Source: Hymenobacter sp. DG01 (GTDB lineage Bacteria > Bacteroidota > Bacteroidia > Cytophagales > Hymenobacteraceae). From it: a DNA stretch of 64,000 bases. The stretch is from positions 4,218,001 through 4,282,000 of the forward strand of contig NZ_CP040936.1 in assembly GCF_006352025.1 (NCBI RefSeq), read 5' to 3'. This document shows positions 3,788 through 8,347 of this stretch, piece after piece (position 1 is the stretch's first letter; the number at the start of each line of letters is the position of its first letter). The notes beneath the pieces were generated by a model, which was not told where the DNA came from, searched no databases, and worked only from the letters and a program-made list of their open reading frames with translations. Position numbers and translations under genes: made by a program.

Positions 3788-5044
3788 TTAAGCCGAAACT
3801 TCCTCGGCCAGAGAGGCTACGCTGATGGGGCGCAGGCGGCCGGTACGGACGATGAAGGCGCCGTATTTGCGCAGGGTGTCACGGTGGCGGATGAGGTTCT
3901 CCAGGGCCACGTAGCCTACTACGTACTCGTCCTCGTCGGCTTCTTCGGAAATCTCGCTGAAATCCAGCAGGTCAATGAGGCGGTCTTCGTCGGTGCGAAG
4001 GTAGATTTCCACTTCCAGGTCGGAGGCATAGGTAGGCGGGTTCGCCGTTTTGGAATACTGGTACGTGAAGCCTTGCCGCAGCGCCGCCAAATCCGCCAGC
4101 ACAGCCGAGCCGGTGGGGTGCCCGCCAGCCCCGCGACCGCGCAAAAACTGCTCGCCGGCAAAATCGGCTTCAATTACTACTCCGTTAAACTCGTGGTCCA
4201 CGGCGTAGAGCGGCGACTCAGGGCCGACGAGCTGGGGCGTTACCAGCACCGTTACGCGGCCATCGGGGAGGCGCTGCAGGCCGGCTACTACCTTTATTTT
4301 CTGGCCCTGGCTGGCAGCAAAGGCAATATCAACGGCGCTGATTCCCTCGATACCCAGGTTAAGTACCTGCTCCGGCTGCAGAAATGCCCCGTAGGCGTGC
4401 GCGGCCAGCAACACGGCCTTGGAGCGCGGGTCGAAAGCACCCATGTCCAGGCTGGGGTCCGTTTCGGCAAAACCTCGCTCCTGAGCTTCGGCCAAGGCTG
4501 ATGCGTACTCCGAGCCTTCCTCGCCCATGCGCGTGAGCACGTAGTTGGAGGAACCATTGAGGATGCCCGTCAGGCGGCTGAGTGGCTCTGCGCTGAAATA
4601 GGCGTCCAGAGTCCGGATGATGGGAATGCTGCCGCACACAGCTGCCTCATATAATAAGGTGCCCTGACCTTCACGCTGCAGCTGCACCAGCTCTGGGAGG
4701 TGGCGGGCCAGCATGGCTTTGTTGGCCGTTACTACCCGGCGGCCCCGGCGCAAGGCTTCGGCCACCAGCCGGAACGCTGCGTCGGCATCGTCGATTACCT
4801 CTACCAGCACGTCCAGCGTTTCGTCGTTCAGTAGGGCGTCCGCATCGAACTCAAACCGCTCGGCTGGCAGCGGCCGAACCTTATGCGGCGTTTTCACCAC
4901 AATGCGGGCAATGTAGAAACCAGCGTCGGGCTGCTGATCCAGGATATCGTAGAGGCCCTGGCCTACACAGCCAAACCCAATCAGACCCACCCGCCAGGGC
5001 CGGGCAACAAAGGAAGCAGAAATAGGGGCAGTGTTAGTGGGCAT
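3788..5044 (-). CDS. hom: Homoserine dehydrogenase (monofunctional)
   Basis: A 418-residue enzyme reducing aspartate semialdehyde to homoserine for Met and Thr. The NAD(P)-binding motif is VGLIGFGCVGQGLYDIL at the N-terminus. The catalytic domain shows LYEAAVCGSIPIIRTLD, LNGSSNYVLTRM, AEAQERGFAETDPSLD and the RGRGAGGHPTGSAV loop. There is no aspartokinase domain. The ATG at 5044 overlaps the 3' end of metX by 11 bases, which points to translational coupling; the longer frame to 5095 would run far inside metX. It is the last gene of the riboswitch-controlled methionine operon, just before a strong terminator. Confidence 0.96.
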   Translation of the reverse strand: MPTNTAPISASFVARPWRVGLIGFGCVGQGLYDILDQQPDAGFYIARIVVKTPHKVRPLPAERFEFDADALLNDETLDVLVEVIDDADAAFRLVAEALRRGRRVVTANKAMLARHLPELVQLQREGQGTLLYEAAVCGSIPIIRTLDAYFSAEPLSRLTGILNGSSNYVLTRMGEEGSEYASALAEAQERGFAETDPSLDMGAFDPRSKAVLLAAHAYGAFLQPEQVLNLGIEGISAVDIAFAASQGQKIKVVAGLQRLPDGRVTVLVTPQLVGPESPLYAVDHEFNGVVIEADFAGEQFLRGRGAGGHPTGSAVLADLAALRQGFTYQYSKTANPPTYASDLEVEIYLRTDEDRLIDLLDFSEISEEADEDEYVVGYVALENLIRHRDTLRKYGAFIVRTGRLRPISVASLAEEVSA

Positions 5045-6074
5045 AGCTCTGAACGTAGAATCGGTCGAGGAAATGAGTAATCTGGGCAGTTTCAATAAGG
5101 AAGCCGTCGTGGCCGTAGTGCGAGTCCATTTCAGCGTACATGGCTCCCCGGATGTGGCGGGCTAGCAGTTGTTGCTCGGAGGTCGGGAACAACACATCGG
5201 AGGTAATACCAATAACCAGCGTGCGGGCCCGGATGCGGTCCAGAGCGGCTTTCACGCTTCCCCGGTCCCGGCCCACATGGTGGCTATCCATGGCCCTTGA
5301 CAGCGTGACGTAGCTGTAGGCATTGAAGCGATTTACCAGCTTATCGCCTTGGTAGCGCTGGTAAGAGCTGGCGAGGTAGTCCGTCAGCTTCGTGTCGTCG
5401 GTGTCCGTCTGGGTTTGGCCGTAGGCTTGGTAGCTGCGGTAGCTGAGCAGGGCCAGGGCCCGGGCTGCCCGCAGGCCCGCCGCACCACCTTCGGGCGTGG
5501 CGGTGGGGTAGGAGGGGTCGGCGAAGATGGCCAGCCGCTGGGCCTCGTTGAAGGCAATACCCCAGGCCGAGTGCCGGGCGTTGGTAGCCAATAGCACTAA
5601 GTTCTCGAACAATTCGGGCCGTTGCACTGCCCATTCCACGGCCTGCTGCCCCCCCAGAGAGCCCCCAATCAAGGTATGAATAGAGGTCAGGGCCAGGTGC
5701 TCGCGCAGAGCTTCGTGAGCCGCTACCATGTCGCGGATGGTGAGCAGCGGAAACTCGTGGTAGGCTACCTGTTCGGTCAGCGGGTCGGGGGTGAGCGGGC
5801 CGGTAGTGCCGTAGCAGGAGCCCAGCACATTGGCACACACAATAAACCAGTCGGCCGGATCGAAATGGCAGGCGGGGCCAACTAGGCCGGGCCACCAGCT
5901 TAGTACATCAGCATTAGCCGTAAGGGCATGGCACACCCACACCACATTGTCGCGGGCGGCATTGAGGCGGCCGTAGGTATGATAGGTAACTTCTACCCGG
6001 GGCAGCGTGGCCCCGCTTTCCAGTCGCAGAGGCCGGGGTAGGCGGAACAGGTGTGGTTCGTCGGGCTCAGGCAT
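5034..6074 (-). CDS. metX: Homoserine O-acetyltransferase
   Basis: This alpha/beta-hydrolase-fold enzyme transfers acetyl from acetyl-CoA to homoserine. The nucleophile elbow is GGSLGGQQAVEW, the charge-relay Asp is in TSDVLFPTSEQQ, and the His in DSHYGHDGFLIE. The early CHALTANAD and later GTTGPLTPDP regions match MetX rather than MetA. The start at 6074 (MPEPDEPHLFRL, 346 residues) begins where family members usually begin. An in-frame ATG at 6173 would add 33 residues rich in Pro/Thr and cannot be excluded. It supplies the substrate for the upstream sulfhydrylase and overlaps hom by 11 bases. Confidence 0.93.
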   Translation of the reverse strand: MPEPDEPHLFRLPRPLRLESGATLPRVEVTYHTYGRLNAARDNVVWVCHALTANADVLSWWPGLVGPACHFDPADWFIVCANVLGSCYGTTGPLTPDPLTEQVAYHEFPLLTIRDMVAAHEALREHLALTSIHTLIGGSLGGQQAVEWAVQRPELFENLVLLATNARHSAWGIAFNEAQRLAIFADPSYPTATPEGGAAGLRAARALALLSYRSYQAYGQTQTDTDDTKLTDYLASSYQRYQGDKLVNRFNAYSYVTLSRAMDSHHVGRDRGSVKAALDRIRARTLVIGITSDVLFPTSEQQLLARHIRGAMYAEMDSHYGHDGFLIETAQITHFLDRFYVQSYAH

Positions 6075-6381
6075 ACTAGGAGCAGCCGGCAGCTGAAGCG
6101 GCGCCAGGGAGCTTCTCACGGGAGCCGTAGGAGTATCAGTCGTCTTCACAGGAGAAAATCCTTGCCGCGTCATCCTGACGCATAGTGGTGGTAATGCGCG
6201 AAAACCTAGCCCGCGGGCGGAGCCGATTCTGCCCGGCTCCGCCCCGGCTAAGCGCGGGCGGCTGTCTGCTGAAGATTCCTCTCTCACAAAAAACTTCAGC
6301 GCCTACCCGCTTACCGCGGTGCTGGAAGAAGCTACCTGGCGGCTCTCTCACCTGCCGCCAGGAATCAACCCCTCTCAAGTG
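6075..6381 (-). other. metY-metX spacer with a GC-rich hairpin
   Basis: If metX starts at 6074, this spacer is 307 bases. It holds a perfect 11-bp stem (arms 6215-6225 and 6234-6244, core GGCGGAGCCG/CGGCTCCGCC) with an 8-base loop and no T-tract. The hairpin could stabilise the upstream part of a processed transcript or dampen read-through. No gene is seen. Part of the spacer (to 6173) could be coding if the longer metX start is used. Confidence 0.5.
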
Positions 6382-7979
<1,598 letters not shown>

Positions 7980-8144
7980 CTAGCAACAGCAACAACAGGC
8001 GCTACAGCAGCGCATTCGCATTCGCCGGTTTGCGGCAGTGGCTGGAGCAGCTACCGAAACGCAGAAAGCCCACGGCGAGGCGATACGCGACAAAGCGACC
8101 GGGGCGTTGGGGGTGAAGGGGGCGAAAGCGAAGGTGTTTTCCAT
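7980..8144 (-). CDS. Putative 54-residue leader peptide ending in a cysteine run
   Basis: Directly downstream of the SAM riboswitch, AGGAG (8149-8153) stands four bases before an ATG at 8144. The frame runs 54 codons to TAG at 7980. It starts MENTFAFAPFTPNAPV and ends MRMRCCSACCCCC-stop: seven of the last nine codons are Cys (TGC/TGT). No transmembrane segment or known domain is seen. I infer a translated control ORF for the metY-metX-hom operon that would sense Cys-tRNA supply by ribosome stalling. A chance ORF is possible, but the good Shine-Dalgarno sequence and its position argue for translation. Confidence 0.6.
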   Translation of the reverse strand: MENTFAFAPFTPNAPVALSRIASPWAFCVSVAAPATAANRRMRMRCCSACCCCC

Positions 8145-8153
8145 GGTACTCCT

Positions 8154-8270
8154 GAGTTATATGCCCCGCCAGCAAAAGCTTGGTCGGGCAGGAATTGGCA
8201 CCTTTCGCGCGGTCGAAGGTTGCCAGCGGGTCACGGAGCCTGTTCTCTCGCCGCTTCTGTATAAATCTTA
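8154..8270 (-). promoter_or_regulatory. SAM-I (S-box) class riboswitch
   Basis: Read on the minus strand, the region has the S-box pattern. P2 is AGCGG paired with CCGCT around a GAG...CTC inner helix. This runs straight into GCTGGCAACC, then a P3 hairpin (CCTTCG...CGAAAGG) and the hallmark GGTGCCAATTCC. P4 follows as TGCCCG...CGGGGCA, and a short P1 pairs TTTATA (near 8263) with TATAA (near 8159). The 3' side of P1 runs into the AGGAG that precedes the leader ORF. S-adenosylmethionine binding would be expected to shut down the methionine operon, here probably by hiding the ribosome site, since no T-tract terminator follows. Confidence 0.88.
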
Positions 8271-8315
8271 TGAAAACTATCCCGCCGCGAGCGGGAGAGT
8301 ACCGGGTTGGTATTG

Positions 8316-8347
8316 CAAAGGTATAGTGCTGTTTTTGATATATGCAA
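8316..8347 (-). promoter_or_regulatory. Promoter of the methionine operon
   Basis: On the minus strand TACCTTTG (8323-8316) exactly fits the Bacteroidota -7 consensus TAnnTTTG. A TTG (8347-8345) stands 21 bases upstream as the -33 element. The transcript would start near 8309 and pass at once into the SAM riboswitch. Confidence 0.75.

Follow-up and report, generated by a model that had tools for sequence, protein, structure and literature searches.

Polycysteine leader ORFs of mycobacteria were reportedly the subject of a study by Canestrari in 2020, whose title is said to call them leaderless. According to the accessible part of PMC1262725, actinobacterial and mycobacterial leader ORFs of this type have cysteine codons by the stop codon, precede sulfur-assimilation genes and show no conserved terminator, and Rho was proposed to act in the Cys leaders that lack terminators. 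In direct translational SAM-I platforms, as far as the available text goes, the initiation region lies in or beside the ligand-stabilised helix, next to or within the 3′ side of P1, and the start codon lies within 15 nt (PMC2258182). The M. tuberculosis Mbox-uORF and the B12 riboswitch-uORF are described, in the portions available, as leaders in which a riboswitch controls translation of a uORF and can thereby affect the operon (PMC12810186, PMC11260477). SAM and tRNA charge are combined as signals in the SAM-I/T-box(Met) tandems, with both in one leader (PMC9481103), and in a Xanthomonas SAM-I switch that binds uncharged initiator tRNA (PMC7270179), and conserved Cys codons occur in the leader ORF uORFC-8-2 before cysS of Rhodobacterales (PMC8632094; all three as partially accessible). 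Leader peptides of Bacteroidota are mentioned in general terms in the accessible text of PMC9723704 and PMC7366714. On the reading proposed below, the locus described here would resemble each of these leader systems.

In the window (the whole 64,000-nt stretch analysed), the S-box that a preliminary description had placed on the minus strand was confirmed as a SAM-I aptamer (Table 1). It was the sole Rfam match at the gathering threshold, the RF00162 model aligned over its whole length, and the T-box family gave no match in the window at that threshold. The 54-codon frame, its ATG, the seven Cys in its last nine codons, the AGGAG ahead of the ATG (8153-8149, minus strand) and metY downstream were also all present as first described. 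The leader ORF translates as MENTFAFAPFTPNAPVALSRIASPWAFCVSVAAPATAANRRMRMRCCSACCCCC, with the C-terminal tail RMRMRCCSACCCCC, and Pfam gave no match for the peptide. Downstream, after a gap of 209 nt, the gene order was metY, the metX-like gene and hom. The window MetY belongs to the TIGR01326 subfamily (O-acetylhomoserine aminocarboxypropyltransferase/cysteine synthase), so a cysteine signal would be chemically sensible at this operon. TTG and TAnnTTTG, which we take to be the promoter form of Bacteroidota, were recurrent among the aligned leaders listed.

Table 1. Coordinates of the features of the leader and of the operon that follows it (positions of the window).
Feature	Position	Strand	Basis or remark
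Predicted Bacteroidota-type promoter	8316..8347	minus	TTG 8347-8345 and TACCTTTG (-7 box) 8323-8316
P0 5′ arm, GGTACTC	8297..8303	minus	complement of the 7 nt that precede the ORF start
Small predicted hairpin CCCGC/GCGGG between P0 arm and aptamer	8281..8295	minus	paired in the 108-leader consensus; CG-to-UA changes
SAM-I riboswitch aptamer (RF00162)	8154..8267	minus	68.9 bits, E 5.3e-14; gathering score 44.4
P0 3′ arm, GAGTACC, abutting the ATG	8145..8151	minus	GAGTRCC in genus leaders, conserved
Leader ORF, 54 codons and TAG (7982-7980)	7980..8144	minus	ATG at 8144, 9 nt 3′ of the end of P1
RMRMR codons, CGA-rich, ahead of the Cys run	8010..8024	minus	recurrent throughout the genus
Terminal Cys run, CCSACCCCC	7983..8009	minus	sequence; 7 Cys in the last 9 codons
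Hairpin including the stop codon	7960..7988	minus	predicted fold; stem sequences change in relatives
C/T tract without G, candidate Rho entry	7943..7959	minus	alignments; follows the stop hairpin
metY, O-acetylhomoserine/O-acetylserine sulfhydrylase	6382..7770	minus	TIGR01326, 682 bits (cut-off 495)
metX-like homoserine O-acetyltransferase, start uncertain	5034..6287	minus	PRK00175, 332 bits (cut-off 331); TIGR01392, 358 (below cut-off 500)
hom, homoserine dehydrogenase, start uncertain	3788..5095	minus	PRK06349, 305 bits (cut-off 205)

The window contains 776 six-frame ORFs of 20 aa or more, and the leader ORF was the only one among them with at least seven Cys in its last nine residues; the runner-up had five. 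Four TGY codons followed by TAA or TAG occurred at four sites in the whole 5.04-Mb genome, and the metY site was the only one located in a leader. The other three sites overlapped long open frames (194-716 codons), and one TGY ×4 site (L391) was the Leu run of a lipoprotein-like signal in another frame. The looser TGY ×3 pattern gave an unsorted set of 212 sites in the whole genome vs. 91 in the reversed control.

Of 120 genomes of the genus (Hymenobacter-like), 113 had a metY ortholog (E below 1e-150), and the leaders of all 113 were read, with the riboswitch core sought by sequence pattern and, in a few, also by Rfam. Core and ORF were present in 113/113 leaders. The core was located directly 5′ of metY in 94/110 leaders (the remaining three of the 113 were read separately); in 16/113 another gene stood between leader and metY, and core and ORF stayed at the operon front. 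Two of the inserted-gene leaders (set L152-L167) were confirmed by Rfam (L152, 64.1 bits; L167, 73.1 bits). The intervening gene at L100, the sole one tested, was of the AhpC/TSA family. A conserved short ORF with Cys codons by its stop, as in leader-peptide attenuators, was found in 109/113 leaders, scored when at least three of the last 16 residues were Cys; the other four leaders (G002, G056, G017 and G055) had the ORF with two Cys codons near its end. Thus, the comparison of orthologous leaders proposed in the preliminary description favored the ORF and its Cys tail. The ORF peptide of the Hymenobacter nitidus leader (L310) was identical to that of genome G047.

Conservation of the Shine-Dalgarno sequence, which had also been anticipated, was rejected: AGGAG preceded the ATG in 11/94 leaders, and the rest had GGAG, GAG or less. 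Bacteroidota ribosomes mostly do without Shine-Dalgarno pairing. Instead, GAGTRCC was conserved before the ATG, as explained by its predicted pairing with GGTACTC upstream of the aptamer, which in the genus leaders occupied a fixed position just behind the promoter-like TAnnTTTG. In the RNAalifold consensus of 108 leaders, the P0 arms paired at a probability of 0.98-1.0, and the AUG region paired with the 5′ end at 0.73-0.81. P0 was paired in 706/724 gap-free cells, above a shuffle mean of 693 and maximum of 700 (counts leaving out G090, a partial contig); relatedness alone can also place sequences above shuffles when no structure exists. One position switched from C-G to G-C in five leaders; covariation support was thin because most P0 columns hardly vary. 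P0 is, as predicted from these alignments, a conserved complementarity with little covariation. P1 and P0 were not formed in the single-sequence MFE of the window leader, in which the aptamer was misfolded, and that fold was used for no claim. In the GTG-start class (28 leaders), P1 was extended to about 10 invariant bp, and an upstream hairpin shared part of the 5′ strand of the extended P1. Both forms (P0 and the extended P1) put the ORF initiation region in or beside the ligand-stabilised helix, and SAM should therefore close the ORF. Two GTG-class SAM leaders were located about 16 kb apart and face to face (G000:C1:1751308-1768273; cysH and permease), and similar facing pairs were observed in G026, G044, G050 and G111.

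The reading that we favor, and that we consider likely, is a two-stage sulfur sensor, in which SAM would gate initiation of the ORF and a stall at the Cys tail would raise operon expression. It builds on the layout, the conservation, the coding character, the spacing, the P0 complementarity and the restriction to sulfur-assimilation-type leaders, all read from the sequences. In the first stage, the translational platform of the SAM-I aptamer would act on the leader ORF rather than on metY: with SAM bound, P1 and P0 (GGTACTC/GAGTRCC) would close over the initiation region and the AUG and leave the ORF untranslated, and at low SAM the initiation region would open and ribosomes would start the ORF. 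In the second stage, the ribosome would read the ORF to its terminal Met/Cys codons and, when short of charged tRNA-Cys (and perhaps of charged tRNA-Met), would stall just before the stop codon, where it would cover the stop-codon hairpin, adjoin the C-rich tract and favor expression of metY-metX-hom. The operon would be ON if SAM is low and Cys-tRNA poorly charged. Occlusion by SAM, stalling and the last step are what we infer, as is the sign of the output, because cysH, sulfite-reductase-like and metZ leaders share the layout and because of the mycobacterial precedent. Since the accessible part of PMC1262725 proposed Rho for Cys leaders without terminators, stall-dependent relief of the operon was adopted, and both a Rho block, as in tnaC, and hairpin exchange are kept as candidate final steps. 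Riboswitch and Cys ORF would probably act in series, the riboswitch controlling ORF initiation; the integration of two signals, as first described, is thus still the best reading, with independent action of the two parts less probable.

The position of the ORF start was compared among 102 further SAM leaders of the genus and the order, outside the set of 113 (L193 was dropped, as no core was found). They comprised 20 class-A leaders sampled by aptamer length and others taken for their best riboswitch score, and the ORF played no part in the choice; gene classes were assigned by sequence motif, and examples were checked with NCBIfam or Pfam. An ORF started at +7 to +14 after P1 in 42/42 sulfur-assimilation-type leaders (metY 17, ATP-grasp 9, cysH 8, amino-acid permease 6, sulfite/nitrite reductase 1, metZ-like 1) vs. 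2/31 metH or metB/C leaders (metH 22, metB/C-type 9). Control windows further down averaged 0 to 0.11 by gene class. With the window start at +9, these positions would match the 15-nt range of translational SAM-I platforms. At least three tail Cys were found in 32/42 sulfur-assimilation-type leaders and in 0/31 metH or metB/C leaders. Outside both groups were 26 leaders with unclassified genes and three metX leaders; the ORF was at +7 to +14 in 8/26 and 2/3, respectively, and at least three tail Cys occurred in 5/26 and 0/3. The genes downstream included those of the cognate pathway, namely metY (OAH/OAS sulfhydrylase family), cysH (PAPS_reduct), a sulfite/nitrite reductase and a metZ-like gene.

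This difference in spacing between gene classes, together with the pairing of P0 with the nucleotides before the AUG in the genus, argues against the SAM riboswitch and the Cys leader being independent on one mRNA, the riboswitch with another platform and the ORF as a separate attenuator. The two parts are separable, because four loci (L318, L337, L343 and L345) carry them apart, with a SAM aptamer that has a metH-like flank and a separate Cys-run ORF 271-383 nt downstream; as an account of the leader described here, we consider independence rather unlikely.

The window genome had six SAM riboswitches, of which five (metY, cysH, permease, ATP-grasp and SusC-like receptor) had an ORF with Cys near its end and one, at metH, had no ORF. 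In the receptor leader of this genome the Cys codons were scattered (CC, C, C), and the receptor assignment is a likeness to L222, which is itself below the curated family cut-off. SusC/RagA-like receptor genes were observed behind a SAM leader whose ORF contains Cys at L222 and, by likeness, L036, which suggests import of a sulfur compound. A RimK-like ATP-grasp gene was also observed under SAM and Cys-ORF leaders (L001, L023, L223 and others); its product is possibly a thiol or peptide ligase.

Both elements recurred in all 20 metY leaders read in four other genera of the family: the riboswitch was recognised by pattern in 13 and by Rfam in 7 (71.9-82.8 bits), and every ORF finished in a cluster of 3 to 6 Cys inside a nine-residue stretch. 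Cys-run ORFs at the same site before metY were found in several families of the order and class and in one family (f23) of another order. A named survey covered 80 metY loci; Rfam was run on 42 of these, 40 of them first, and 30 of those 40 had a SAM riboswitch. Among these 30, 13 had a Cys-tail ORF 7-14 nt after P1 and 12 were without a Cys tail; at L327, one more Cys-tail ORF followed a seeming P1 that the model had placed too early, and the last four were L318, L337, L343 and L345, with the ORF 271-383 nt downstream. Names with Cys-run ORFs included Mucilaginibacter, Sphingobacterium, Haliscomenobacter, Lewinella, Saprospiraceae, Pontibacter, Hymenobacter, Bernardetia, Chitinophagaceae and a Flavobacteriaceae, several of the named relatives being MAGs. 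None of the 27 loci examined from outside the class, 20 of which came from a single family, showed the layout of SAM riboswitch and Cys ORF. A Bacteroidota-wide composite may extend this reading, with initiation of a leader peptide that has a charge-sensing Met/Cys tail as the only output of the SAM riboswitch, and with metY, cysH, sulfite-reductase-like, permease, ATP-grasp and TonB-receptor-like operons answering to low SAM and low charged Cys-tRNA together; we regard the case for and against this wider claim as evenly balanced.

Cys-rich ORFs before metY without a SAM riboswitch were seen only at two single loci (L326 and L353) among 20 scanned. The L353 leader ORF had many Thr, Cys and Met codons (TTTCCTCMTTCMCCC) and ended about 122 nt upstream of metY; no SAM riboswitch was found there, and Thr_leader scored weakly (25.7 bits; gathering 55). 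At L374 (a Balneolaceae MAG), a 24-codon Cys/Met-rich ORF (MCKPVCCKCMCMMM) started 410 nt upstream of metY and preceded, rather than followed, the SAM aptamer (2269-2398).

The Cys part was not universal, because some leaders keep riboswitch and ORF at the same spacing without a Cys tail. Fewer than three tail Cys were found in 10/42 sulfur-assimilation-type leaders with the ORF in place. Loss of the ORF or its Cys tail beside a kept riboswitch, which the preliminary description had named as counter-evidence, occurred, for the tail, in 8/17 metY leaders sampled outside the family. Those leaders with ORF spacing kept and fewer than three tail Cys are what one would expect if the ORF were translated only to keep Rho off, as the gate of the riboswitch, with SAM alone sensed and the Cys tail secondary; control of a uORF by the M. 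tuberculosis Mbox together with Rho-dependent termination is described in the available part of PMC12810186. We consider this explanation unlikely, as the persistence of Cys runs in several lineages, beside bodies that diverge strongly, would then have to be explained separately.

Between the Cys run and metY, all three bases of the stop codon were paired in 60/109 leaders, and the stop hairpin was weak in energy terms (mean z −1.3 over the 109; window z −0.5). In L318 and L345 the stop codon was in the loop of TATGCC/GGCATA, and in L343 it was just behind such a hairpin. The mean excess of C over G in the leader was at the 87th percentile of its strand, and the maximum was at the 97th. As judged by composition, a Rho site is a weak candidate, the C-richness being moderate. 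An intrinsic terminator before metY was rejected: the scan for a hairpin and T-rich stretch was positive in 61/109 leaders with no common place or sequence, it gave nothing in the window's own leader, and good terminators were confined to individual leaders or clades. In some clades the Cys run was complementary to a segment about 105-170 nt downstream (such pairs were GCCCGTGTTG with CARCACGGGC and TGTGCTGTTG with CAACAGCACG), and in those clades a Cys run of this kind would, from its sequence, be part of a classical attenuator. As a general feature this pairing was rejected, since 20/109 leaders, mostly of few related clades, exceeded all 40 shuffles, and it was not found in the clade of the window, where 6/40 shuffles reached the window score.

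We return to the sensor with two stages, which assigns the Cys codons a role of their own. In the 109 leaders the ORF was 40-63 codons long, and the other two frames were interrupted in 63 and 51 leaders. Bodies diverged and differed in length across the genus leaders, and the Cys tail persisted. Across 30 independent close pairs, pN/pS came to 0.64 for the body, against 0.29 for the last 12 codons. Cys made up 44% of the last 14 codons vs. 1.2% of the body, and Met 12.8% vs. 0.9%; the 109 leaders were selected by at least three Cys in the last 16 residues, and these codon statistics describe that set. Both Cys codons were in use (TGT 392, TGC 323), in agreement with the third-position variation that had been proposed. 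CGA represented 161/257 tail Arg codons vs. 3/79 Arg codons in metY/metX/hom. This rare Arg codon dominated the RMRM motif, an observation for which slow decoding or an RNA constraint are possible causes. Outside the genus, Met occurred in 23/27 listed tails.

The recurrence of RMRM with its rare CGA in the genus, including 3/4 of the leaders with only two Cys near the end, could point to a peptide that is itself active, either by nascent-chain arrest (RMRM and Cys) or as a free thiol- or metal-binding micropeptide. The tails outside the genus shared Cys and often Met and no other common residue pattern, which, with the pN/pS of 0.64 in the body and the lack of a Pfam match, makes an active peptide very unlikely. 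Chance, or an RNA-level TGT/TGC repeat that mimics Cys codons and could serve as the pairing element of the clades with a complementary downstream segment, is extremely improbable given an ORF with the same start and differing body lengths in all genus leaders, the mixed Cys codons, the lower pN/pS of the tail and the differing Cys-run sequences of distant lineages.

If the two-stage reading is true, two sulfur sinks would be balanced in one leader, and the output of the riboswitch would be permission for another, ribosome-based amino-acid sensor. It predicts a family of leader ORFs in Bacteroidota, and the layout would be a direct test case for riboswitch control of initiation in this group. 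In the openly licensed literature, as partially accessible, we found polycysteine leaders without a riboswitch and riboswitch-uORFs without an amino-acid run, and the combination of a riboswitch with a Cys-run ORF was not found. The polycysteine leaders, as far as they are described in the accessible part of PMC1262725, have no riboswitch controlling the ORF, whereas here the ORF starts beside the P1 of a SAM-I aptamer, in Bacteroidota. The Rhodobacterales uORFC-8-2 differs in having two Cys codons and an intrinsic terminator, and no riboswitch is described in the available portion of that source (PMC8632094). The Mbox and B12 leaders respond to other ligands, and their uORF is not described, in the available text, with a one-codon run or tRNA-charge sensing (PMC12810186, PMC11260477). 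In the SAM-I/T-box(Met) tandems and the Xanthomonas switch, according to what is accessible of both sources, the RNA reads the tRNA directly (PMC9481103, PMC7270179), whereas here a translating ribosome would do so, and the amino acid would be cysteine. Finally, unlike in the translational SAM-I platforms, as covered by the accessible part of PMC2258182, the first start codon after the aptamer here opens a leader peptide, and the enzyme gene lies about 200 nt further on.
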